NCBI RefSeq assembly: GCF_016406105.1
Contig: NZ_CP066308.1
Location: forward strand, 1,709,501 to 1,773,500
Source of the DNA: Brevibacillus composti
GTDB lineage: Bacteria > Bacillota > Bacilli > Brevibacillales > Brevibacillaceae
Direction of reading: 5' to 3'
DNA: 64,000 nucleotides
Position 1 is the first letter of the stretch. Every line of letters starts with the position of its first letter. A program made the translations under genes and the position numbers. The notes beneath the pieces are model-generated. The model had not been told where the DNA came from. It did no database searches and worked only from the letters and a program-made list of their open reading frames with translations. Of this stretch, positions 1 to 12,480 are shown in pieces.

Positions 1-1042
1 GACGAGTCAGCAGCAAAGGGAGCTGGCTGTCATCAAACGGCCCGTTCGGCTGTCGCGGCATAGCGAGCACGGCGAGACGGACTGCATTGTGGCGCCGATC
101 ATGCTGGATGGGCAAATATACGGGAACATCACCTGCTGGGCCTTTGACATGGAGCATCTGGAGATGGATCTCGCTCTGCTGGAAAAGGCGTCGACGCTGT
201 TGTCGCTCGAATTTTTGCGCTTGAAAGTAAGGTTTGACGTCGAGCAGCAATACAAAAGCGACTTTTTGCGGGAGCTGTTCATCAATGAAAGCCTGGTCCC
301 CGAGGATGTGCAGGAGCGGGGGCGGCCGTACGGCTTTTCCCTGGACACCTCCTATATTTGCATGGTGCTGCGATTTGAGGGACAGGAGAGGGCCAGCAAC
401 CCGTTTGATCTGGGAGATCATGCCGAGCGCATCATCCGGGAGTTTTACCCGGGGACGATTACCGGTTTTTTGCGGCAGGCGGTGTACTGTCTCTGTCCGG
501 TAGAACCGGGAGAGGAAGACGCGGCGATCAAGCAAAGGGCGCGGCAGATGGCCGACCCGCTGAAAAAACAGCTGTCAGCCAAAGGCTTTCAGCTGGGAAT
601 CGGGAGATATCACGGAACAGGCTTGGCTGCTGTCCGTGAGAGCTTTCGCGAAGCGGAAAAGGCGATATTGCTCGGAGCGGCGCTGCCCAAAAGACCGTCT
701 GTGATTCACTTTGACGATCTCGGGATCTACCGCCTCCTGGCCCAGTTCCGCGACACTGCTGAACTGCGGCATTTTTTCGAGGAGACCGTGGGAAAGCTGT
801 ACCAGTATGACCGAAGCAGCGATTTGGACCTGATCAAAACGCTTCGGCTCTATTTTCAGCATAATGAGACCTTGACCGAAACGGCCCAAGCGCTGTTTAT
901 CCATGTCAATACACTCAAATACCGGCTGCGGCGCATCGAAAAGATTTCCGGCCACAGCTTGCAGCAGTCCGAAGGGAAACTGATGCTCCACCTCGGCTTG
1001 AAAGTAGCAGAGATGATCAGTGACGATTATCGGTTTCACTAA
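1..1042 (+). CDS. PucR-family transcriptional regulator (5' end outside window)
   Basis: The reading frame is already open at the window edge, so the N-terminus is missing. The first visible part reads like the end of a GAF-type sensor domain. It is followed by a middle GGDEF-like region and a C-terminal PucR-type helix-turn-helix (ETLTETAQALFIHVNTLKYR, then RLRRIEKISG). PucR proteins regulate purine, allantoin and other nitrogen-compound catabolism. The gene lies just upstream of, and co-directional with, a carbamoylase/dihydroorotase-type catabolic operon, so it is the obvious candidate regulator of that operon. Family call is strong; the ligand is unknown. Confidence 0.85.
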   Translation, partial: TSQQQRELAVIKRPVRLSRHSEHGETDCIVAPIMLDGQIYGNITCWAFDMEHLEMDLALLEKASTLLSLEFLRLKVRFDVEQQYKSDFLRELFINESLVPEDVQERGRPYGFSLDTSYICMVLRFEGQERASNPFDLGDHAERIIREFYPGTITGFLRQAVYCLCPVEPGEEDAAIKQRARQMADPLKKQLSAKGFQLGIGRYHGTGLAAVRESFREAEKAILLGAALPKRPSVIHFDDLGIYRLLAQFRDTAELRHFFEETVGKLYQYDRSSDLDLIKTLRLYFQHNETLTETAQALFIHVNTLKYRLRRIEKISGHSLQQSEGKLMLHLGLKVAEMISDDYRFH

Positions 1043-1099
1043 GCAGCAGTCGCTTTTTTTGTCTAAACGGCTAAAGGGATTCCACACACGGGACAAGAA

Positions 1100-1123
1100 T
1101 TTCCGTAATAAAAATAGCGGAAA
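1100..1123. promoter_or_regulatory. Inverted repeat upstream of the catabolic operon
   Basis: TTTCCG and CGGAAA form a perfect 6-bp dyad separated by 12 bases, inside the 104-base gap between the PucR gene and the M20 hydrolase gene. It could be a regulator site. The arms are short and no strong sigma-A promoter was identified beside it, so chance is possible. Confidence 0.3.
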
Positions 1124-1146
1124 ATCTAAGAACTGTGGAGGCAGCG

Positions 1147-2424
1147 ATGAACCAGAAGCGTTTAGAACAGACCATTCGCACATTCAATCAATTTGGCTAC
1201 TCGGACAATGCTGTCAATCGATTGGCGTATACGGCAGCCGAGCGGCAGGCGGTTCGCGGACTGGCGGAAATGTGTCTGCAAGCAGGCATGACCGTACGGA
1301 TGGACGCCGCGGGCAATCTGATCGCCAGACGACCGGGCTCCGATCCCTCACTGCCTGCTGTCGCCTGCGGTTCCCATCTGGATTCCGTCATCGACGCCGG
1401 GCAGTATGACGGCGTGATTGGCGTGGCGGCCGGTTTGGAGGCGGTGCGCTCGCTGAATGAGCAGGGAATCGTCACCCGCCATCCCATCGAGCTGATCTGC
1501 TTTACCTGTGAAGAATCCTCCCGTTTCGGGGTCGCCACCATCGGCAGCAAGGCGATGGCGGGCATTCTCGATCAGCAAGCGGTCGGCGCTTTGCGGGACC
1601 GGATGGGGATCTCCTTTCGTGAAGCCTTGGCGGAATGTTTTCTGAATTTTGACAAGATAGGCGAAGCGGCCCGGAAGCCAGGGGAGCTGAAAATGTTTGT
1701 GGAGCTCCATATCGAGCAGGGACCCGTTTTGGAGCAGGAGGAGAAGCCGGTGGGAATTGTCACCGGCATCGCGGGACCGACCCGGCTGCAGGTTCGCGTG
1801 CAGGGAAAAGCCTCCCATACCGGGACCACGCCGATGGATCGCAGGCATGACGCCTTTCTGGGGGCGGCCGAGATCGGGCTGGCATTGGAGCAGGCCGCAC
1901 GGGAAGAGGCCGCTTACGGTACGGTGGGCACGGTCGGCGTCTGCCAAATCACCCCCGGTGCAATGAATGTCGTGCCGGATGCCGCCGAATTGAAAATCGA
2001 TATTCGCGGCATCCATACGGCATCAAAGCAGCGAGTCTTGGAAAAGCTGCTGCTGGCCTTTCGCCAGGCTGAACAGAAAAGAGGGCTGCGCGTCGCGTGG
2101 AGCCTCCTGAGCGACGAAGAGCCTGTGCTCCTGGACGAAGGCGTCATCGGCTCGCTCGAAGAAAGCTGCCGGGTGCTGAACATCCCGTATCATAAGATGC
2201 CGAGCGGCGCCGGACATGACGCGATGAACATGGCGAGGCTTTGCCCGGCAGGGATGATTTTCGTGCCCTCTCGGGATGGGCTTAGCCACCACAGGGACGA
2301 GTACACGCCGCCCGAACAGATCGGGATCGGAGCGCGTCTGCTCGAAGCGATGCTAAAAAAATGGGCGGTGGCCGAGGAGAGTCATGCAGGGGAGAATACG
2401 GAGCGAGTGGGGGAGAGCAGATGA
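1147..2424 (+). CDS. M20-family N-carbamoyl-amino-acid hydrolase / allantoate amidohydrolase-type enzyme
   Basis: Zinc amidohydrolase of about 425 residues that removes a carbamoyl or ureido group from an amino acid-like substrate. Metal-site motifs are visible: GSHLDS with H77, the bridging D88 in GQYDGV, the EE pair at 122-123 in CEESSRFG, H188 in ELHIEQGP, and a late HH in GLSHHRDEY. The dimerisation-domain signature GKASHTGTTPMDRRHDA is also present. The ATG at 1147 is chosen because GGAGG ends six bases before it; an in-frame GTG at 1135 is the alternative. The stop overlaps the next start (ATGA), so translation is coupled. Family members hydrolyse N-carbamoyl-L-amino acids, allantoate, beta-ureidopropionate or ureidosuccinate. 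Context favours N-carbamoyl-aspartate or beta-ureidopropionate. Confidence 0.85.
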   Translation: MNQKRLEQTIRTFNQFGYSDNAVNRLAYTAAERQAVRGLAEMCLQAGMTVRMDAAGNLIARRPGSDPSLPAVACGSHLDSVIDAGQYDGVIGVAAGLEAVRSLNEQGIVTRHPIELICFTCEESSRFGVATIGSKAMAGILDQQAVGALRDRMGISFREALAECFLNFDKIGEAARKPGELKMFVELHIEQGPVLEQEEKPVGIVTGIAGPTRLQVRVQGKASHTGTTPMDRRHDAFLGAAEIGLALEQAAREEAAYGTVGTVGVCQITPGAMNVVPDAAELKIDIRGIHTASKQRVLEKLLLAFRQAEQKRGLRVAWSLLSDEEPVLLDEGVIGSLEESCRVLNIPYHKMPSGAGHDAMNMARLCPAGMIFVPSRDGLSHHRDEYTPPEQIGIGARLLEAMLKKWAVAEESHAGENTERVGESR

Positions 2425-3206
2425 AGCAGATGCACATGAGGATTCTGTCCAATCAGCAGGTGAGTGATCGTTATTGGCACATGGTGGTCGATGCTGCGGG
2501 TCTGGATGCCGAGGTAATGCCCGGACAGTTTTTTAACATCCGCTGTTCCGGGGAAACCTATCCGCTGCTTCGCCGGCCGTTCAGCATTTATCGCATCAAC
2601 CGAAACGAGCGGACGCTGGAATTCCTCTATCTGGTCAAAGGGCTGGGCACCAAGCGGCTGACGGAGCGAAAAGCGGGGGAGACGGTGGACATCTTCGGCC
2701 CGCTCGGACGTTCTTTTGAGCTGCAGGACGGCTGGAAAACCGTGCTCTTGGTCGCCAGAGGCGTGGGCATTGCCACGCTCACGGCCCTGGCCCAGGATGC
2801 CGCCGAAAAAGGTATCCGCGCTGCTGCGATTCTCAGCGCCCGTTCGCGCAATGACTTGCTGGCGGCAGAAACGCTCCAGGGCTTCGGCGCACACGTCTAC
2901 AAAGTGACCGAGGAGAACGGAAACAGCGACGTCGAGTCGGTGCATCGACTGATCGAGCAAATACTGGCCGAACATAAGATCGACGCCGCCTTTACCTGCG
3001 GATCCAAACGGCTCTCCCGCCTGCTTCGGGACGTGACCGCCTCCCGCGGGATTCCCGCCCAGATCGCGCTGGAAGAGCATATGGGCTGCGCGATGGGGGT
3101 ATGCTTTGCCTGCGTCTGCGATGTGCGTGAGGGAGAAGCGCTCAAGACCGTGCGCGTTTGCAAGGAAGGTCCTGTATTCCCGCTGGAAAAGGTGGTGCTC
3201 GCATGA
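2421..3206 (+). CDS. PyrK-like dihydroorotate dehydrogenase electron-transfer subunit
   Basis: About 261 residues, the usual PyrK length. It has a ferredoxin-reductase fold: the FAD-binding motif RRPFSIYR near residue 55, an NAD-binding ARGVGIAT segment near 115, and a C-terminal [2Fe-2S] cluster set of C223, C228, C231 and C247 (CX4CX2CX15C). In class 1B dihydroorotate dehydrogenase this subunit passes electrons between NAD(H) and the PyrD flavin. It overlaps the upstream hydrolase and the downstream PyrD-like gene by ATGA junctions, which implies a stoichiometric complex. It lies outside any pyrimidine biosynthetic operon, so a catabolic paralogue is inferred. Confidence 0.85.
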   Translation: MKQMHMRILSNQQVSDRYWHMVVDAAGLDAEVMPGQFFNIRCSGETYPLLRRPFSIYRINRNERTLEFLYLVKGLGTKRLTERKAGETVDIFGPLGRSFELQDGWKTVLLVARGVGIATLTALAQDAAEKGIRAAAILSARSRNDLLAAETLQGFGAHVYKVTEENGNSDVESVHRLIEQILAEHKIDAAFTCGSKRLSRLLRDVTASRGIPAQIALEEHMGCAMGVCFACVCDVREGEALKTVRVCKEGPVFPLEKVVLA

Positions 3207-4129
3207 CGATCAAACAAGAGCTGGATCTGACCGTCAACATCGGCAGTTTGACGCTGCGCAATCCGATCATGCCCGCATCGGGGGCTTTTGGCGAAGATAT
3301 GGAGCAGGTCATCGATTTCGAACAGTTGGGGGCCGTCGTGCCCAAAAGCATCACCAAGGAACCGCGAAAAGGAAATGCCACCCCCCGCGTCTGCGAAACG
3401 GTAGGCGGCATGATTAATTCCATCGGGATACAAAGCAAGGGGATCGTCTATTATCTGGAGCACATCGTGCCGTACTACCGCCGTTACAACACGCCGCTCA
3501 TCTCCAGCATCTCCGCCGATTCTATCGAGGAGTTTGTGGAAATGTCCGAGATCATCGCAAGCCGGGAGGAAGTGGCTGCGCTGGAGCTGAACATCTCTTG
3601 TCCCAATCTGAAAGGAAACGGCCTGGCCTTTGGGATGGACCCGGAGATTACCTACCGGCTGCTGCAGGCGGTGCGGCAGGTGACTGACAAACCGCTCATC
3701 GCCAAGCTGACGCCCAATGTGACCAGCATCCAGGAGATTGCCATCGCGGCCGATGAAGGCGGTGCAGACAGCCTCAACGTCGCCAATACGATCCTGGCGA
3801 TGGCGATCGACGTGCACACGCGAAAACCAAAGATCGGCAATGGGATGGGCGGGCTGTCCGGACCGGCCGTCAAACCGATCATCGTCCGGATGATCTATCA
3901 GGTGAGGCAGGTCTCTGCCCTCCCGATTATCGGCTGCGGCGGCGTCATGAATGGAGAGGATGCCATCGAGATGATCCTGGCCGGAGCCAGTGCCGTACAG
4001 GTGGGGACGGCCAGCTTCATCCAGCCGACAGCGATGCTCGATATTCTGGAGGAAATCAAGCAGTACATGCGAACATATGGAATCGCCAACATCAAGTCGC
4101 TCGTCGGGCAGGTAAGCGCAACGAAATAG
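3203..4129 (+). CDS. PyrD class 1B-like dihydroorotate dehydrogenase, probable catabolic paralogue
   Basis: TIM-barrel FMN enzyme of 308 residues. Class 1B features are the catalytic-base cysteine C133 in ELNISCPN, K48 in PKSITKEPR, N72 in GGMINSIG, the phosphate-binding GGLSGPA segment and IIGCGGV. B. subtilis PyrD has GLQN where this protein has GIQS, a small change near the substrate loop. It is translationally coupled to the PyrK-like gene. Linked hydrolase and cyclic amidohydrolase genes suggest it runs in the reductive direction on orotate or uracil. The family call is firm; the direction and substrate are inferred from context. Confidence 0.85.
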   Translation: MTIKQELDLTVNIGSLTLRNPIMPASGAFGEDMEQVIDFEQLGAVVPKSITKEPRKGNATPRVCETVGGMINSIGIQSKGIVYYLEHIVPYYRRYNTPLISSISADSIEEFVEMSEIIASREEVAALELNISCPNLKGNGLAFGMDPEITYRLLQAVRQVTDKPLIAKLTPNVTSIQEIAIAADEGGADSLNVANTILAMAIDVHTRKPKIGNGMGGLSGPAVKPIIVRMIYQVRQVSALPIIGCGGVMNGEDAIEMILAGASAVQVGTASFIQPTAMLDILEEIKQYMRTYGIANIKSLVGQVSATK

Positions 4130-4147
4130 AAAATGGAGGAATGCTAC

Positions 4148-5554
4148 ATGAAGTGGGATCACATCATCCGCAATGGGCAAGTCGTTACCCCCCAAGAAAC
4201 ATACCAGGCCGATCTGTACATCAAAGATGGGAAGATCGCTGCCATCTCCCCCTCATCGCAGCCTCTACCGGGCACAGCAGCAGAAGAAACGGATGCAGCC
4301 GGAAAATACGTGCTGCCGGGCTTTATGGATATCCATGTCCATTCCCGCGACCCCGGCGCGACGTACAAGGAAGATTTCTATCACTCCAGCCAGGCTGCCG
4401 CAGCCGGCGGGATCACCACGATCTTTGAAATGCCCAATACCAATCCGCCGATCAACAACGTGGAAAATTTCCACAAGCAAGTGGAAAACCTGCAAGGAAA
4501 AGCGCATGTGGATTTCGGCATTTGGGCGATCTGCCTCGGCCATCTGAATCTGGCGGATATCCTGCCGCTTCACGAAGCGGGCGTCATCGGGTTCAAGTTC
4601 TTCTGGGGATACGCCGTGCACAGCAAAACCTACCAGCTGATGTACAACTACAAGGAAGGCATGGAGGATGTCATTCCGCCCTTTAAAGACGGGGATGTCC
4701 TGGATATCTTCCGGGAAGCGGCGAAGACAGGCCAGGTGCTGGCGATTCACGCGGAAAGCAATGACATCATTCAGCATCTCACCAAAAAGGTAGAGGCCAG
4801 CGGACGGCGGGACTACGAGGCGCTGCTGGAAGGGCGTCCCAACCTGGCCGAAATCGTCACAGTGCAGACCGGCATTGCGTTTGCCAAGGAGACGGGAGCG
4901 CGCCTGCATATCCTGCACGTCAGCACCGGGGAAGCGGTCGATCTGATCAAGCAGGCGCAAGCGGAAGGCTATCCGATTACGGCCGAAACCTGCCCGCATT
5001 ACCTCTTCCTCGACAATGAGGATTTTCATACGATCGGCCCTGCGATGAAAGTGTATCCGCCGGTGAAGTACAAAAAGGATCAGCTGCGCCTCTGGCAAGG
5101 CATTCAGGAGGGCGTGATCTCCGTGGTCTGCTCCGACCATGCTCCGCACACGGAGGAGGAGAAGGATGGCGATCTCTGGTCGATTCCGGCGGGGATGTGC
5201 GGCGTCGAGACATTGGCTCCGCTGATGCTCAATGCCGTTCACGAGGGCAAGCTGACGCTGCAGCAAGCGGTAGCCGTCCTGTCCGAGCAGCCGGCCAAGC
5301 TGTTTGGCATTTACCCGCAAAAAGGATCGTTGCAGGTGGGCACCGACGCAGATATCACGATCGTCGACATGGATCGTCCGTTTACGATCAAACGAGAAAA
5401 TCTGCACAGCAAGAGCAAGGTAACCGCCTATGACGGCTGGAGCGGCACGGGCAGTCCGGTCGCGACGATTGTCCGCGGCCAAACGGTCATGAGGGACGGC
5501 AGAATCGTCAGCGGTCCTGTCGGCCGGCTGGTCAAGCCCCAGACAAAATCATAA
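4148..5554 (+). CDS. Dihydroorotase/allantoinase-type cyclic amidohydrolase
   Basis: Binuclear-metal amidohydrolase of 468 residues. Ligands are readable: H63 and H65 in DIHVHSRDPG, the likely carboxylated lysine K150 in GFKFFWGYA, H201 in AIHAES, H257 in ILHVST and D330 in CSDHAPHT. The HVHxRDPG form is typical of the dihydroorotase/allantoinase branch rather than classical hydantoinase. The start is ATG 4148 because GGAGG lies nine bases before it; ATG 4133 overlaps that ribosome site and is rejected. It follows the PyrD-like gene by 18 bases. Ring opening of dihydroorotate, allantoin or dihydropyrimidine is possible; the operon favours dihydroorotate or dihydropyrimidine. Confidence 0.82.
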   Translation: MKWDHIIRNGQVVTPQETYQADLYIKDGKIAAISPSSQPLPGTAAEETDAAGKYVLPGFMDIHVHSRDPGATYKEDFYHSSQAAAAGGITTIFEMPNTNPPINNVENFHKQVENLQGKAHVDFGIWAICLGHLNLADILPLHEAGVIGFKFFWGYAVHSKTYQLMYNYKEGMEDVIPPFKDGDVLDIFREAAKTGQVLAIHAESNDIIQHLTKKVEASGRRDYEALLEGRPNLAEIVTVQTGIAFAKETGARLHILHVSTGEAVDLIKQAQAEGYPITAETCPHYLFLDNEDFHTIGPAMKVYPPVKYKKDQLRLWQGIQEGVISVVCSDHAPHTEEEKDGDLWSIPAGMCGVETLAPLMLNAVHEGKLTLQQAVAVLSEQPAKLFGIYPQKGSLQVGTDADITIVDMDRPFTIKRENLHSKSKVTAYDGWSGTGSPVATIVRGQTVMRDGRIVSGPVGRLVKPQTKS

Positions 5555-5577
5555 CGAGCGCAAGGAGGCACGTCACT

Positions 5578-6318
5578 TTGCAGACAGAGGTAACACAGTT
5601 GATGCAATCCCATCGGTCAATCCGCAGATACACGGATGAGCCGATTCCGGAAGAGGTATTGGCCGACATCCTGGCATGTGCGCAGTGGGCGCCGTCTTCC
5701 CATAATGTCCAAGCCTACAGCATCATCGTCATCCGCTCGGCGGAAAAGAAGAAACAGCTCGCCCAATATTGCGGGGGACAGAGATGGGTGGAGAACTGCC
5801 CGGTTTTCCTCGTCTTCTGCGCCGATTTTTATCGGCTGAAGCTGGCTTGCGACATGCACGGCACAGACCTGGCTGTCGACGAGGTGGAAAATCTGCTGGT
5901 GGCCGCTGTGGATACGGCATTGGCTGCGGAAAATACGTTGGTAGCGGCCCGGTCGCACGGGCTGGGCGGCGTGATGATCGGCGGTATTCGCAACCAGCCG
6001 GAGGAAGTGGCCCGCCTGCTCAATCTGCCGCCGCTGACGACGCCGATCATGGGCATGTGTCTCGGCTATCCTGATCAGGACGTGGCGCAGAAGCCGAGAG
6101 TGCCCGCCCGCGGCGTCATTCACGAAGAGGAATACAGGACCGAGCATTTGGCCGAGGTTCTGGAAGAGTATGAGGCAATCAGTTCTGCGTATTATGCGCA
6201 GCGGACCGGAGGGGAGCGCGCGGAGGGCTGGACAAAGCAGATGGCTGACTATCTGCAAAAGCCGCGCCGTCCGCATCTGTCCGCCTTTTTGCGGCAGCAG
6301 GGCTTTCCTTTGAAATAA
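5578..6318 (+). CDS. NfsA/NfrA-type FMN nitroreductase
   Basis: Flavin oxidoreductase of 246 residues, typical for the NfsA/Frp branch. It has the N-terminal FMN motif HRSIRRYTDEPI, the APSSHNVQ loop and the ARSHGLGGVMIGGIRN segment. The start is TTG, supported by AGGAGG nine bases upstream. It follows the amidohydrolase by 23 bases and is probably in the same transcript. These enzymes reduce nitro, quinone or other acceptors with NAD(P)H. A specific role in the upstream pathway cannot be assigned; it might recycle flavin or act on a heterocycle. Confidence 0.82.
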   Translation: MQTEVTQLMQSHRSIRRYTDEPIPEEVLADILACAQWAPSSHNVQAYSIIVIRSAEKKKQLAQYCGGQRWVENCPVFLVFCADFYRLKLACDMHGTDLAVDEVENLLVAAVDTALAAENTLVAARSHGLGGVMIGGIRNQPEEVARLLNLPPLTTPIMGMCLGYPDQDVAQKPRVPARGVIHEEEYRTEHLAEVLEEYEAISSAYYAQRTGGERAEGWTKQMADYLQKPRRPHLSAFLRQQGFPLK

Positions 6319-6366
6319 GCGCGAAGGAGATGGCGGCTCATGGGGAAATCGCACGGAGGAAAGCAG

Positions 6367-7656
6367 ATGAGTTTTGCCGCGACGGGAGACAGTTTTATTA
6401 CGCGGAGACTGCCCTCCCGAGGGGCGGAGGGGTTTCGGGAGGTAGCCGCTCTGCTTTCACAGGCCGAATTTCGCTTTACCAATCTGGAGGTGACGGCCCA
6501 CCGATTCGAAGGCTTTCCTTTTGCCTTCAGCGGGGGCACCTGGGCGATTGCACCCCCGGAGGTATTGACCGATCTGCAGGCATACGGGTTCAATATCATG
6601 GCCTGGGCCAATAACCATACGATGGATTACGGGTATGGCGGGCTGGAGGCTACGCGCCGCTATCTGGATCAGTACGGGATCGCCCACGCCGGGGTCGGGC
6701 TGAATCTGGCCGAAGCGAGCCAGCCGACCTACCTCGAGTGCCCGGGCGGTCGGGTGGCGCTGATCGCGGCCACCTCCACCTTTCATGAATCTTGGGCGGC
6801 GGGGGAACAGCGGCCCGACATGGCTGGCCGCCCGGGGGTGAATCCGCTGCGCTACACCACCACCTATCACCTGCCCGAAGAGGCGCTCGGCCATTTGCAG
6901 GAAATCGCGGGGATGATCCCGATCAACGCAGAGCACAACCTGAACGTGAAGGAGGGCTTCGCCGTCGATCCGCAGGACGGCGGCGTGCGGTTTGGCAGCT
7001 ATCTGTTTCGGCCGGGAAGCGAGGCGAGCTGCACCACAGCCCCGTTGGAAAAGGATTGGCAGCGGATCAGGCGCGCGATCAGCGAGGCGCGCCGCCAATC
7101 CGACTATGTCGTGGTCAGTATCCATTCGCATGAAATGAGCGGGGAAGACAAGAAGAAGGCGGCCATGTTTCTTGAGACTTTCTCGCGCAGGTGCATCGAC
7201 GAGGGAGCCGATGCCGTCATCGGCCATGGCCCGCATGTGCTGAGAGGCATCGAGATCTACAGAAATCGGCCCATCTTCTACAGCCTGGGCAACTTCATTT
7301 TTCAAAATGAAACCGTCAGCCGTCTTCCGGCGGACTTCTATGAAAAATACGGCCTGGGGCATGAACACGGCGTGGCCGACGCATTGGATACGCGGAAGGA
7401 AAACAACACAAAAGGCCTCGGCGTCAATCCGTATGTCTGGGAATCGGTTATCCCGCTCTGGAAAATGGAGGGCGGGGAGCTGACGGAGATTGCGCTTCAT
7501 CCTGTCGAGCTTGGGTTCGGGAGGCCCCGCTATGAGCGGGGATGGCCGGTGCTCTCAGGACGCACGGAGATTCTGGAGCATTTGCAGAAGCTGAGTCAGC
7601 CGTACGGGACCAAAATCGTCATCGACGGAAATGTGGGAAGAGTGCGATTGTCCTGA
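6367..7656 (+). CDS. CapA-family metallophosphatase-like protein, no signal peptide
   Basis: About 429 residues with the PGA_cap/CapA calcineurin-like motifs in order: TGDSF at the N-terminus, FTNLEVT, WANNHTMDYG, SIHSHE and GHGPHVLRGIEIY. Poly-gamma-glutamate CapA is normally membrane-anchored. This protein starts directly at the first motif with no signal peptide or transmembrane segment, so it should be cytosolic. ATG 6367 has GGAGGA six bases ahead; ATG 6340 is an alternative. It closes the catabolic operon before a terminator. No capB or capC is nearby, so a capsule role is unlikely; a hydrolase or amide-ligase role is unproven. Confidence 0.75.
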   Translation: MSFAATGDSFITRRLPSRGAEGFREVAALLSQAEFRFTNLEVTAHRFEGFPFAFSGGTWAIAPPEVLTDLQAYGFNIMAWANNHTMDYGYGGLEATRRYLDQYGIAHAGVGLNLAEASQPTYLECPGGRVALIAATSTFHESWAAGEQRPDMAGRPGVNPLRYTTTYHLPEEALGHLQEIAGMIPINAEHNLNVKEGFAVDPQDGGVRFGSYLFRPGSEASCTTAPLEKDWQRIRRAISEARRQSDYVVVSIHSHEMSGEDKKKAAMFLETFSRRCIDEGADAVIGHGPHVLRGIEIYRNRPIFYSLGNFIFQNETVSRLPADFYEKYGLGHEHGVADALDTRKENNTKGLGVNPYVWESVIPLWKMEGGELTEIALHPVELGFGRPRYERGWPVLSGRTEILEHLQKLSQPYGTKIVIDGNVGRVRLS

Positions 7657-7694
7657 CATTGAGCGACCTCCGATGAATCGCCGAGGGTTCAACG

Positions 7695-7754
7695 AAAAAA
7701 GAGACTTGTCCGGGCTGAAGTGCGAGTGCACCGGGTCTGCAAGTCTCTTTTTTT
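7695..7754. terminator. Bidirectional terminator between the catabolic operon and the tetR gene
   Basis: AAAAAAGAGACTTG pairs with CAAGTCTCTTTTTTT across a GC-rich loop. The A-run and T-run make it functional on both strands, fitting the convergent genes on either side. Confidence 0.85.
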
Positions 7755-7783
7755 GTTGATTTTCAGAAGGTATTCCCATTCTG

Positions 7784-8401
7784 TCATGCGTACAACCCTC
7801 CGGTATAAATCGCTGTCAGTGTTTTCGCGATCTCCTCCAGAGTGGACTGATGCCTTCTGTGGACGATATCCCATAAGTACATTTCATGTGAGTAAAACCA
7901 GCCGCGTGCGACCAATTCGGCGTCGAGAGCCCCCCGAGCCAATTTGCGGCTTTGCGAATAGCCGATATCCTGAGCGATGCGGCTGATAAACCGTTCGCGG
8001 ATTTCCGTCCATTTGGCCTGCGCGGAAAGAGAGACACCGATCGCTTCTCCGAGTACCTGCAGCATCTGATGTTCAGATTCGGCCAACTGCAAAAACGAGA
8101 GCGTCTGATGCTGGATCAGCTGCTCGGCCTCTTCGCGCGTGGCCGGTGTAAAAGGCAGCTCTGCGATGCTGTAAAAAGAGGCCATCACGTCTTCCATCAG
8201 TACGATCAAGAGATCGTCCTTTCCGGTAAAATGCACGTAAGCGGTCCCGTATCCGGTTTTTGCCCGTTTAATGATTTGTGAGATGGTGGCCTTGTGAAAG
8301 CCTTCCTCCTGAAAAACCTCTTTGGCTGCCTCCAGCAGCTTTTGCCGCGTCTGTTGCGAACGCATATGGCGTCCATCGGTTGCTTGTTTGATTCCTTCCA
8401 C
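7784..8401 (-). CDS. TetR/AcrR-family transcriptional regulator, probable repressor of the kyn operon
   Basis: 205-residue TetR-type repressor. The N-terminal helix-turn-helix is visible ([20 protein letters not shown], then [22 protein letters not shown]), followed by a helical ligand domain. The start is GTG with AGGAGG about nine bases upstream. It is divergent from kynU across 152 bases that hold a consensus promoter with a palindrome over the -35 box. That arrangement suggests it represses the kyn operon and responds to tryptophan, kynurenine or a related effector. Regulation is inferred; the family is clear. Confidence 0.85.
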
Positions 8402-8490
8402 CGCTGCGTTCCTCCTTTATAGTTCCAGCATACAGGGAAAAGCTGCAAAAAGAAAGGGAGCGCGGAGCGGAGGCTGTCGAATCGAGAATA

Positions 8491-8519
8491 TTGACACGAT
8501 GTCAACTTTTCAGTAATCT
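8491..8519 (+). promoter_or_regulatory. kyn operon promoter with palindromic operator candidate
   Basis: TTGACA, a 17-base spacer and TAATCT form a good sigma-A promoter 35 bases upstream of kynU. Bases 8491-8505 read TTGACA-CGA-TGTCAA, a perfect dyad including the -35 box. A repressor bound there would block RNA polymerase. Confidence 0.75.
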
Positions 8520-8553
8520 GGTTCTAAATACTGGAAGAGAAGGGGGTTTTCTC

Positions 8554-9840
8554 TTGAACGGTTCACTGTTTCTACCTTCTGAGGCGTATGCTCTCGAACG
8601 GGATGCAGCCGACGGCCTGGCTCATTTTCGCAGCGAATTTTACCTTCCGCAAAAAGGGATTTATCTGGACGGTAATTCGCTCGGAGTGATGTCAGTTCGC
8701 GCAGAGCAAGCAGTCGCGGATGTGATGGACGATTGGAAGCGCCACGGGATTGACGGCTGGACAGAGGGAGAGCGTCCCTGGTTTTATCAGGCGGAGAGGC
8801 TTGCGGAGTGGATGGCGCCGCTAGTCGGAGCGGCTGCTGATGAAGTAATTGTAAGCGGTTCCACGACTGTCAATCTGCATCAGCTAGCTGCTACTTTTTA
8901 TCAGCCAGTCGGTAAACGAACCAAAATCCTGGCAGACGAGCTGACCTTTCCATCAGATTTGTACGCCTTGCAGAGCCAGTTGCGGCTCCGCGGATATGAC
9001 CCGGATGAACATCTGGTTCTGGTCAAGAGCAGAGACGGACGTTTTTTGGATGAGGCGGACATCATCAGCAGCATGACGGAGGAAATCGCCTTGATTGTAC
9101 TGCCCACTGTTCTGTATCGGAGCGGTCAGCTTTTGGATATTCCCCTGCTGACTGCGGAGGCGCACAAGCGCGGCATCCCCATCGGCTTTGACGGATGCCA
9201 CTCGGTCGGCGTGATTCCCCACCGCTTCCAGGAGTGGGACGTGGATTTTGCCTACTGGTGCAGCTACAAATACCTAAACGGCGGACCGGGTAGCGTCGCA
9301 GCGCTCTACGTAAACCGCAGGCATCTCGGGCGCATGCCGGGCTTGGCCGGCTGGTTCGGCTCAGACAAGGAAAAACAGTTTGATCTGGGGCCGGTCTTCA
9401 CTCCGGCTAGTACAGCGGGCGCCTACCAGATCGGCACGCCGCATATTCTCAGCATGGCTCCGTTGCTAGGCGCGCTGCCGATGTTCGCCGAAGCCGGAAT
9501 CGAAGCGATCCGGGAAAAATCGCTGCAGCTAACCGCGTATCTAATGGCGCTGCTGGAAGCCGAGCTGGCCGGATACGGTTTTGTCATCGGCAATCCGCGG
9601 GAGGATGAGAGGAGAGGGGGGCATGTCAGTCTGGAGCATCCGGAGGCAGCCCGCATCTGCAAAGCGCTAAAGGCAAACGGAGTTATCCCCGACTTCCGTG
9701 CGCCCCACGTGATCCGTCTCGCTCCCGTGCCGCTGTACACCTCTTTCCATGATGTGTGGAGCGCCGTACGGAGACTGAAGCAGATTATGGAGGAGCGCAG
9801 CTATGAGCAGTTCGAGAACAGGCGCGGCGTGATCGCCTGA
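8554..9840 (+). CDS. kynU: Kynureninase
   Basis: PLP enzyme that cleaves kynurenine to anthranilate and alanine. Its 428 residues match the family. Motifs: IYLDGNSLG near the N-terminus, the phosphate-loop segment [27 protein letters not shown] with the PLP-contacting aspartate, and the lysine in [12 protein letters not shown] that forms the Schiff base. The start is TTG 8554 with an AAGGGGG ribosome site; TTG 8491 lies inside the promoter and is rejected. It is the first gene of an operon with kynB and a kynA-like gene spaced by 16 and 47 bases. Confidence 0.93.
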
Positions 9841-9856
9841 GCGGGAGGGAAGAGAC

Positions 9857-10510
9857 ATGGCATGGATTGATATTTCTCGTCCGCTCGCGACCGGAGCGCC
9901 GACCTGGCCGGGGGATACGCCGTACTGCTATGAGGTCAGCTGGCCCAAATCGGAAAGCGGCTCAGTCAATGTCGGCAAGCTGACGACAAGCCTCCACACG
10001 GGCACGCATGTGGATGCGCCGTATCATTTTGCCGATGACGGGGAGAAAATTATCGATTTGCCGATCGATTTGTACATCGGGCCTGCGAGAGTGCTGGATG
10101 TATCGCATATGGCGAGCGTCGGGGCAGAAGATATGGCCGCCTTTGATCTGAGGGGAGTGACCCGCCTGTTGCTTCGTACCGGCTCATGGCGGGACCCGCA
10201 CCAGTTTCCCGCAAAGATCACGCATCTGCGACCCGATCTGGCCCCTTTCCTGGCGCAGCGGGGGATACGCCTGATCGGAGTGGATACCCCTTCGGTCGAT
10301 CCGCTGGACAGCAAAGAGATGGCAGCCCATCACGCGCTCCATGCTCACCGGATACAGATAGTGGAGGGGCTTTTGCTTGATCATGTCGAGCCGGGGGATT
10401 ACGAGCTGATCGCCCTGCCTCTGCCTTTAATTGAAGCCGACGGCAGCCCGGTCCGGGCGGTACTGCGCAAAAGCCCGCAATCACCCCGGGACCCTGCCTC
10501 GGCGACATGA
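9857..10510 (+). CDS. kynB: Kynurenine formamidase (arylformamidase), cyclase-type
   Basis: 217-residue metal-dependent hydrolase of the cyclase family that converts N-formylkynurenine to kynurenine. The metal motif HTGTHVDAPYHF is intact near residue 47, and the downstream GVDTPSVDP and HHALH segments match KynB. A GGGAGG ribosome site precedes the ATG. Its position between kynU and the TDO-like gene supports the assignment over other cyclase-family hydrolases. Confidence 0.92.
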   Translation: MAWIDISRPLATGAPTWPGDTPYCYEVSWPKSESGSVNVGKLTTSLHTGTHVDAPYHFADDGEKIIDLPIDLYIGPARVLDVSHMASVGAEDMAAFDLRGVTRLLLRTGSWRDPHQFPAKITHLRPDLAPFLAQRGIRLIGVDTPSVDPLDSKEMAAHHALHAHRIQIVEGLLLDHVEPGDYELIALPLPLIEADGSPVRAVLRKSPQSPRDPASAT

Positions 10511-10557
10511 CTCTTCCGGGCGCGGGCGGCGAATGGCGATAAAAGGAGGCGAGTCCG

Positions 10558-11253
10558 TTGAACAGAGAGCTGACCGATTACGAGAAGTACATTCGGACGG
10601 AAGAGCTGCTGCGTCTGCAAAAGAACGACGATCAATTGGCGTGCGCCGATGAACTCACCTTTCAGGTGATTCATCAGATCGCAGAGCTTCACTTCAAGCT
10701 GATTATGCAGTATCTGGGACTGGCAAAAGAGGCGATGAAGAGGGGAGAGGCAGAGGCGGCGAGCGGGCAGCTTCGCCGTGTCAATCTTCACCTGAAGCAT
10801 CTGCCGGAGATCTTTTCGCTGGTGAAAGTGATAACACCGCGGGATTACCATACCATTCGGCTCGCACTCGGAAGGGGCAGCGGACAGGATTCGCCGGGCT
10901 TTAATCAAATCCTGCAGACAGGCCCTGCGTTATGGGAGCCTTTCCAGCAGTTGATGGACGAAAAAGGGGTCGATTCGCTGGCGCTGCTGAAAGATCCCGC
11001 CGCCCATCCCGCCCTGTACCGCTTGCAGCAGGAGTTGCTGCAGTTTGACGAGGGCTTTCAGAGCTTTCGCTACTATCATCTCCAGCTCGTTCGCCGCATG
11101 ATCGGACTGGAGACGAACAGTCTGAAGGGAGTGCCGGCGCAAGCGCTGCAAAAAGGAGTGCGGCATGAGTTTTACCCCGTGCTGTGGAAGGCGATCAGCG
11201 AGCTGACCGACTGGACCGGCTCCAGTTATGGCGCAAAACCGCTCGGCGAATGA
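10558..11253 (+). CDS. kynA: Tryptophan 2,3-dioxygenase-superfamily protein, short and divergent
   Basis: Helical heme dioxygenase homologue of 231 residues; typical TDO has about 260-300. FQVIHQIAELHFKL matches the TDO motif with the distal histidine, and SFRYYHLQLVRRMIG matches the region with the proximal heme histidine. However, the usual SGFQSxxYR substrate loop reads GSGQDSPGFNQI, losing the carboxylate-binding arginine, and the GTGGS loop near the C-terminus is not recognisable. The start is TTG with AAAAGGAGG upstream. In a kynU-kynB operon it is the expected first pathway enzyme, but activity on L-tryptophan is less certain than the operon suggests. Confidence 0.75.
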   Translation: MNRELTDYEKYIRTEELLRLQKNDDQLACADELTFQVIHQIAELHFKLIMQYLGLAKEAMKRGEAEAASGQLRRVNLHLKHLPEIFSLVKVITPRDYHTIRLALGRGSGQDSPGFNQILQTGPALWEPFQQLMDEKGVDSLALLKDPAAHPALYRLQQELLQFDEGFQSFRYYHLQLVRRMIGLETNSLKGVPAQALQKGVRHEFYPVLWKAISELTDWTGSSYGAKPLGE

Positions 11254-11254
11254 G

Positions 11255-11309
11255 GAGGCTCCTCCCCGGTGAGAGAGAAAGGTTCTACCGGGGAGGAGCC
11301 TCTTTTTTT
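11255..11309 (+). terminator. Strong rho-independent terminator of the kyn operon
   Basis: A 16-bp perfect stem, GAGGCTCCTCCCCGGT with ACCGGGGAGGAGCCTC, is followed by seven T residues. It starts directly after the kynA stop codon. Confidence 0.9.
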
Positions 11310-11328
11310 GATGCGAAAAGAGGGAGAT

Positions 11329-12480
11329 CTACTCCAGTTTGATTTCCGACCAGATGCGGTCGTACAGAGTGGCGGCTTCCCCGATGTCAATCATGTATTC
11401 GCCTTTCGCCAACTCCTCCTTCGGCGGATAGACGGCAGGATCCTCAAGCACCTCCTTGTCGATCAGCTCGTGGGCAGCCAGATTCGGGTTGGCGTAGGGA
11501 TAGTGCTTGGAAATTTCGGCGCTGATCTCGGGGCGGAGGACGAAGTTGATAAAGGTCTCCGCGGTCAGCTTGTTCGGACTTCCTTTGGGGATGATGAAAT
11601 TATCCTGCCACAGCTCCATGCCTTCTTCGGGCAGCACGGCCTGGATCTTGGGATTCTCCTGCCGGGCCAGCGAGGCTTCGGCGCCGTACACGATGCCGGC
11701 GGCCACCTCTCCCGTGACCAGCATCGTCTTGGGGCTGTCGCTGTCGAAGGCCTTGATGTTGGGCAAAAGCTGGCGGAGCAGTTCCTTCGACTTTTCCAGG
11801 GCGGCGGGGTCTGTTTCATTGAGCGATTTCCCTTGCATCTGGTTGGCGATCCCGATCATCGACCGCGAGTCATCCAGCACGACCAGGGAATCCTTGAACT
11901 CCGGCCGGAGCAGATCCCGGTAGCTGGCGACCGGGACACGCACCTTTTCCGTATTGACGGCGATCAGGACGTTGCCCCACATGTAGGGAACAGAGTAGGC
12001 ACCCTCGGGGTCGGCGGAGCGCTTCAAAAATTCCGGTCCGATGTTTTGGATATTGCCGATGTTGGCAAAGTCTAGTTTCTCCATCAGCTGCTGTTTGCGC
12101 ATCAGGTCGACCATGTAGTCGCTGGCGACGGCCAGGTCGTATCCCGCCGAATGGACGGAGAGCTTGGCGAACATCTCCTCATTGGACGAGTAGGTGCTGA
12201 TGTTTACTTTCACGCCGTACTCTTTTTCGAAGGCTTCCAGCACGCTGGTGGGAATGTATTCAGACCAGATAAACAGATTGAGCGATTTGGCCAGCTTGGG
12301 CTGATTCTGACCGCTTTCCCCGCTGGCAGTGCCGCTGCCGTCCGAAGAGGAATTTGTCCCGGCGGAGGCTTGCGGGGCGGAGGAGGCGGCAGGACCGCCG
12401 CAGCCGGCGAGACCGGCGAACAGAGCAGCGATCAGCAGCAGGATCATCCAGACACGGCTTGTCCGCTTTTTCATCATCAT
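11329..12480 (-). CDS. PotD-type ABC transporter substrate-binding lipoprotein (orphan)
   Basis: 383-residue exported lipoprotein. A hydrophobic signal sequence ends in the lipobox LAGCG near residue 27 and is followed by a Ser/Gly linker. The mature domain is a spermidine/putrescine-type binding protein, with the N-terminal LFIWSEYIPTSVLEAFEKEYG signature region. No ATPase or permease gene lies beside it, so it must borrow a transporter encoded elsewhere or act as a sensor. It is downstream of, and co-directional with, a saccharopine/carboxynorspermidine dehydrogenase-like gene, which fits a polyamine theme. Exact ligand unknown. Confidence 0.8.
   Translation of the reverse strand: MMMKKRTSRVWMILLLIAALFAGLAGCGGPAASSAPQASAGTNSSSDGSGTASGESGQNQPKLAKSLNLFIWSEYIPTSVLEAFEKEYGVKVNISTYSSNEEMFAKLSVHSAGYDLAVASDYMVDLMRKQQLMEKLDFANIGNIQNIGPEFLKRSADPEGAYSVPYMWGNVLIAVNTEKVRVPVASYRDLLRPEFKDSLVVLDDSRSMIGIANQMQGKSLNETDPAALEKSKELLRQLLPNIKAFDSDSPKTMLVTGEVAAGIVYGAEASLARQENPKIQAVLPEEGMELWQDNFIIPKGSPNKLTAETFINFVLRPEISAEISKHYPYANPNLAAHELIDKEVLEDPAVYPPKEELAKGEYMIDIGEAATLYDRIWSEIKLE

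Follow-up and report, generated by a model that had tools for sequence, protein, structure and literature searches.

The locus analyzed here raises the question of why the genes of a PyrK-PyrD pair are joined in one operon to a cyclic amidohydrolase and an M20 hydrolase. It lies in a window of 64,000 nucleotides (contig NZ_CP066308.1, positions 1,709,501 to 1,773,500) of the genome of the soil bacterium Brevibacillus composti, which consists of 4.47 Mb in two contigs. The chemistry by which orotate is degraded has been familiar since the 1950s, and Clostridium (Zymobacterium, now Faecalicatena) oroticum ferments this compound by means of a dihydroorotate dehydrogenase, a dihydroorotase and a ureidosuccinase. 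The original prediction read the operon in the same sense, from orotate through dihydroorotate and N-carbamoyl-aspartate to aspartate. Every independent line examined in this study supported that reading, in which orotate is the substrate that we infer, and it is very probable from the sequences compared that the operon is dedicated to orotate catabolism.

The M20 hydrolase, PyrK, PyrD and cyclic amidohydrolase genes form, in this order and as had been claimed, a single tight operon on the + strand (positions 1147 to 5554). The ATG of PyrK lies on the stop codon of the M20 gene in a four-base ATGA overlap, a second ATGA overlap joins PyrK and PyrD, and the amidohydrolase gene is preceded by GGAGGA. 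The operon is longer than first described, as a nitroreductase gene and then a CapA-type gene follow with gaps of about 20 bases. On the 5' side of the PucR gene there is an MFS transporter gene and then the pyr operon.

1 to 1042, + strand: PucR-family regulator, C-terminal part in the window; the gene starts upstream of it, at genome position 1708932
1043 to 1146, + strand: intergenic region, probable promoter or regulator site, compared with the upstream regions of relatives
1147 to 2424, + strand: M20 carbamoylase, putative N-carbamoyl-L-aspartate amidohydrolase (ureidosuccinase), with R213 and S124
2421 to 3206, + strand: PyrK, the subunit on the NADH side of class 1B dihydroorotate dehydrogenase, with FAD and 2Fe-2S
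3203 to 4129, + strand: PyrD of class 1B, putative catabolic orotate reductase, with the orotate-contact residues and Cys, in a distinct clade
4148 to 5554, + strand: dihydroorotase-type cyclic amidohydrolase of the carboxylated-Lys type, with an R67/N97/H334 carboxylate triad; in the place of PyrC in Kyrpidia-type genomes
5578 to 6318, + strand: NfsA-type nitroreductase (NF008033 over the cut-off), an operon member in some relatives
6340 to 7656, + strand: CapA/PGA_cap-type protein (PF09587), related to the peptide epimerase MslH (NF038314, below the cut-off)

The Rfam scan of positions 1 to 12000 gave no match, and sigma-70 and terminator scans of the operon strand revealed nothing above chance. 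Profile scores upheld the family assignments proposed for the four genes. PyrD exceeded the class 1 cut-off (NF005574, 377.5 versus 269 bits) and PyrK that of its Fe-S domain (PF10418, 53.4 versus 23.9 bits), with a 2Fe-2S site at Cys 223, 228, 231 and 247 and an RRPFSIY motif. The M20 protein scored above the hydantoinase/carbamoylase cut-off (TIGR01879, 416.9 versus 204) and the amidohydrolase above that of dihydroorotases (TIGR00857, pyrC_multi, 352.1 versus 279.05).

A separate and complete pyr operon had been proposed as a sign of a catabolic role. Such an operon is present (pyrC-carA-carB-pyrF-pyrE) but it is devoid of pyrKD, carB being directly followed by pyrF, and the genome carries a class 2 PyrD. 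Taken alone, this arrangement and the presence of a single PyrK in the genome would fit a biosynthetic pair that had moved. The original prediction held that a sole pyrDK would speak against it, and the PyrK of the operon is literally the only one in the genome. However, this does not refute the catabolic reading, because the genus synthesizes pyrimidines via class 2 PyrD and because, in other Bacillales, the cluster PyrD coexists with a separate pyr-operon PyrKD. A class 2 PyrD scored over the curated cut-off in 26 of the 26 genomes of the genus, so that PyrKD is dispensable for synthesis. PyrK was found in only five of them, always at this locus, and the amidohydrolase is encoded in precisely those five (5/5 with the hydrolase versus 0/21 without it, p about 1.5 × 10−5 by simple counting, uncorrected for shared ancestry).

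When about 85,000 species genomes were scanned with the amidohydrolase as query, 80 loci were retrieved, to which six relatives were added. Cluster-type PyrK and PyrD accompanied the hydrolase in 34 loci, 33 of them distinct, L036 and L043 being one contig, and a recurrence of this extent indicates that the gene arrangement is not due to chance. The carriers included Brevibacillus (with L042, the locus of Brevibacillus centrosporus NRRL NRS-664), Sporolactobacillus, Halalkalibacter, Planococcus, Oceanobacillus, Virgibacillus, Lentibacillus, Lysinibacillus and a Kyrpidia-like genome, among others. The M20 gene was present in 33 of the 34 loci; the order M20-PyrK-PyrD-hydrolase was found in 28 and PyrK-PyrD-M20-hydrolase in three. 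A PucR-type regulator was encoded in 24 loci and a transporter in 31, either TRAP (16) or aromatic-acid-type MFS (15) and never both. An aspartate ammonia-lyase gene adjoins four complete clusters as well as L047, a cluster without PyrKD, and this points to L-aspartate as the probable end product. CapA appeared in 19/34 loci and NfsA in 8/34; both are too regular to be ignored and do not fit into the route proposed here, which is a point against orotate as the substrate. The same must be said of the four loci in which the hydrolase and M20 genes occur without PyrKD (L047, L072, L075 and L076). The genomes of L047 and L072 were checked and contained only pyr-operon-type PyrD; therefore, both hydrolases also act with a different point of entry, perhaps dihydroorotate, carboxymethylhydantoin or N-carbamoyl-aspartate. 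A Lachnospiraceae locus (L081) with hydrolase, CapA, M20, PyrC-like, PyrK and PyrD genes was considered as an anaerobic catabolic version and was not counted, since no other class 1B PyrD was found in that MAG and the one present forms a very long branch.

With respect to PyrD, the residues Lys48, Asn72, Gly75, Asn132, Cys135 and Thr198 (Lactococcus lactis PyrDB numbering), which we take to be the orotate contacts of the solved structures, are present in the window protein and in all 57 cluster PyrDs. These 57 proteins also share Ser49 and Ile76, whereas nearly all other PyrDs have Ala or Gly at position 49 and Leu at position 76. The cluster PyrDs form a clade of their own in the tree, the branch that separates 34 of them from nine pyr-operon PyrDs having a support of 100/100; the PyrD of L091, encoded inside a pyr operon, was placed with the pyr-operon proteins and not with the cluster ones. 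Outside the family of the window, all the cluster-bearing genomes checked except G078 have a second class 1B PyrD. The second copies that were fetched as loci adjoin pyrF and pyrE, with the exception of L144, in which only PyrF was recognised. In these genomes, identity to the window PyrD was 49 to 72% for the cluster copy and 42 to 47% for the second one. Most of the Bacillales genomes checked have both types, the cluster type with 61 to 79% and the pyr-operon type with 42 to 47% identity. Taken together, these traits suggest that the window PyrD acts as a catabolic orotate reductase.

The amidohydrolase also exceeded the cut-off of the allantoinase model AllB (TIGR03178, 384.8 versus 357.85); the two models overlap, and therefore the score alone does not decide its identity. 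Its nearest solved relatives, an L-hydantoinase and an allantoinase, are a point against the orotate reading. The enzyme is of the carboxylated-lysine kind (K150) and has the triad R67, N97 and H334, which is also found in the B. anthracis dihydroorotase 4yiw and in the PyrC of the same genome. In dihydroorotases, this Arg/Asn/His triad binds the carboxylate of dihydroorotate. The equivalent residues are I, I and H in the L-hydantoinase 1gkr, N, N and S in the allantoinase 3hm7, and D, L and F in the hydantoinase of the genome itself. Arg67 was part of the pattern used for retrieval, so its conservation among the retrieved loci is partly due to selection; Asn97 and His334 were not in the pattern.

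Additional information came from genomes in which this subfamily stands in the place of PyrC. In Alicyclobacillaceae L085 and Kyrpidia L091, the pyr genes run pyrB-carA-carB-pyrK-pyrD-pyrF, followed by a member of the hydrolase subfamily and without pyrC, while in G056 (a single contig, 99% complete) the cluster is placed after pyrF. In each of these three genomes no protein other than the subfamily member exceeds the dihydroorotase cut-off, although a second amidohydrolase falls just under it (257 to 270 bits), and no E. coli-type PyrC was found when it was sought there. That a sole protein over the cut-off goes with a pyr operon lacking pyrC suggests that members of the subfamily act as dihydroorotases.

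Regarding the M20 protein, the nearest solved chain is 3n5f, an N-carbamoyl-L-amino acid hydrolase. R213 and S124 are specific to the cluster enzymes, in which both are invariant (39/39); at the position of R213, five paralogues and the characterised enzymes have Trp or Ser. R213 may bind the second carboxylate of N-carbamoyl-aspartate; this private residue and the aspartate ammonia-lyase genes next to some clusters are indirect signs that the M20 enzyme could be a ureidosuccinase.

The PucR-type regulator announced upstream of the operon proved to be real. It is 536 amino acids long and its PucR, GGDEF_2 and HTH_30 domains all score over the cut-off (PF07905, PF17853 and PF13556). The upstream regions of relatives share a motif like ACAAAGGTT, of which the window has a degenerate version, CTAAAGGGATT, within positions 1043 to 1146; no sigma-70-like match was found in this intergenic region. 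For the MFS transporter, whose gene lies between pyrE and that of PucR, the best family match was aromatic acid/H+ symport, below the cut-off. In the proposed route, orotate would be imported, here probably by this transporter, and the PyrK-PyrD complex would use NADH to reduce orotate to L-dihydroorotate. The amidohydrolase would then open the ring to give N-carbamoyl-L-aspartate, from which the M20 enzyme would release L-aspartate, CO2 and ammonia. The probable activator of the operon is PucR.

The original prediction offered as its alternative a reductive uracil or thymine pathway, in which PyrDK would replace PreTA and the hydrolases would be a dihydropyrimidinase and a beta-ureidopropionase. 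The step logic is the same, and PyrD and PreA are homologous. Nevertheless, this alternative is weakened by a separate locus at 2.097-2.101 Mb that encodes PreT-PreA and a hydantoinase, with a PreA of 688.9 bits against a cut-off of 335. The window PyrD reached 151.5 bits with that PreA equivalog model, is 308 amino acids long without the C-terminal 4Fe-4S domain, and has the DHODH loop and orotate contacts instead of the PreA residues. In addition, the carboxylate-binding triad of the hydrolase would be unneeded for dihydrouracil and the transporters of the related loci belong to acid-carrying families (TRAP or aromatic-acid MFS), all of which makes a uracil route highly improbable. The AllB score, the PucR-type regulator and the fact that the M20 protein passes the allantoate amidohydrolase subfamily model PRK09290.1-5 would agree with an allantoin or allantoate operon that had received an unrelated PyrDK insertion. 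However, PyrKD lies inside the operon with its four-base overlaps, PyrKD recurs across the 34 loci, the AllC allantoate deiminase cut-off is widely missed by the M20 protein (TIGR03176, 251.5 versus 597.75), and the hydrolase takes the place of PyrC in the Kyrpidia-type genomes. The allantoin route is also weakened by the active-site residues of the amidohydrolase, R67 and H334 standing where the allantoinase 3hm7 has N and S; it was rejected, and we consider it very unlikely.

It is also unlikely, if somewhat less far-fetched, that the true substrate is another carboxylated ring, such as an orotate substituted at position 5 or an unsaturated carboxymethyl-hydantoin, the nitroreductase and CapA then performing extra steps. 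Such a substrate would explain the frequency of these two genes, which plain orotate does not, and it would agree with the second amidohydrolase copies at L072, L087 and L089 and with a weaker kinship to the hydantoin-5-propionate hydrolase ErtD and the N-carbamyl-glutamate hydrolase ErtE. Against it, 15 of the 34 clusters are without CapA and 26 without NfsA, the orotate contacts of PyrD are unchanged, and the linkage to pyr operons is repeated.

Orotate catabolism thus being the preferred reading, its relation to known systems must be considered. The reaction chain proposed is the same as that of Clostridium oroticum; that organism is a strict anaerobe of the Lachnospiraceae, whereas the operon type of the window is found in Bacillales, with PucR and TRAP or MFS transport. 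According to the title of Argyrou et al. (2000), as cited in PMC9326563 and PMC10395836, the dihydroorotate dehydrogenase of C. oroticum is of class 1B. The biosynthetic class 1B PyrDK of B. subtilis and L. lactis (1ep1) has subunits, cofactor motifs, orotate contacts and catalytic Cys in common with the cluster pair and differs from it in clade and in residues 49 and 76. The PreTA, dihydropyrimidinase and beta-ureidopropionase pathway likewise reduces its substrate, opens the ring and removes the carbamoyl group, but employs a PreA with an extra 4Fe-4S domain together with PreT, on a substrate without carboxylate. In ergothioneine utilisation, the ErtD/ErtE pair similarly opens a carboxylated hydantoin and removes the carbamoyl group from an acidic amino acid, but that system has no PyrKD, and the window amidohydrolase and M20 protein fall below the ErtD/ErtE cut-offs.

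Our search of the open literature did not yield any paper that describes orotate degradation at the level of genes, including the genes of C. oroticum, and both the gene set and its distribution among Bacillales appear to be undescribed. We find it reasonably likely that the module represents a previously undefined and widespread orotate catabolism of Bacillota, with its own PyrKD clade, split off from the biosynthetic one, and with a ring hydrolase that represents a dihydroorotase lineage of independent origin, which in Kyrpidia-type bacteria also took over from PyrC. In the module, CapA and the nitroreductase may contribute further steps that act on modified orotates. A definable operon would make orotate degradation a trait that is predictable from genomes and directly testable. 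It would also correct the annotation of such PyrD, amidohydrolase and M20 proteins, which would otherwise be labelled as a biosynthetic dihydroorotate dehydrogenase, an allantoinase and an allantoate amidohydrolase. Finally, it would be a clear example of how a redox enzyme pair from biosynthesis can be recruited to run in the opposite direction while forming a clade of its own.

The operon is accompanied by two additional genes and lies beside a kynurenine operon, and a further PyrD-like protein is encoded elsewhere in the genome:

5578-6318, NfsA-type nitroreductase, within the operon (also in 8 related loci)
6340-7656, CapA/PGA_cap-type protein, accompanying the operon (also in 19 related loci)
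8491-11253, kynurenine operon (kynureninase, arylformamidase, tryptophan 2,3-dioxygenase-like ORF), beside the cluster
genome contig C1:1570461-1572515 (locus L009), class 2-like PyrD domain and membrane region in one 684-aa protein

The CapA/PGA_cap-type protein is kin to the lasso-peptide epimerase MslH, and plain orotate chemistry gives no explanation for the nitroreductase. A kynurenine operon likewise adjoins the cluster at locus L031. Long proteins resembling the 684-aa PyrD-like protein were found in most genomes of the genus.

Comparison of upstream regions revealed that many relatives carry, 5' of their first gene, a ACAAAGGTT(A/T)-like motif, which is degenerate in B. composti (1043-1146) and could be a PucR-type site.

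The amidohydrolase was also observed in other gene settings. Loci L070 and L074 lack PyrKD, and its neighbours there are aspartate ammonia-lyase, carbamate kinase and molybdenum hydroxylases, a gene set that perhaps represents a fermentative route with ATP gained from carbamoyl phosphate. An additional copy, about 50% identical and close to an ornithine-cyclodeaminase-like gene, is present at L072, L087 and L089 and possibly constitutes a carboxymethylhydantoinase branch.

In the Alicyclobacillaceae locus L085, the Kyrpidia locus L091 and L037 (genomes G092, G093 and G056, respectively), pyrC is absent from the pyr operons, and the cluster-type amidohydrolase, which adjoins pyrF or comes after the cluster, is the sole dihydroorotase above the curated TIGR00857 cut-off in these genomes. 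There, it is probably a non-orthologous replacement of PyrC.
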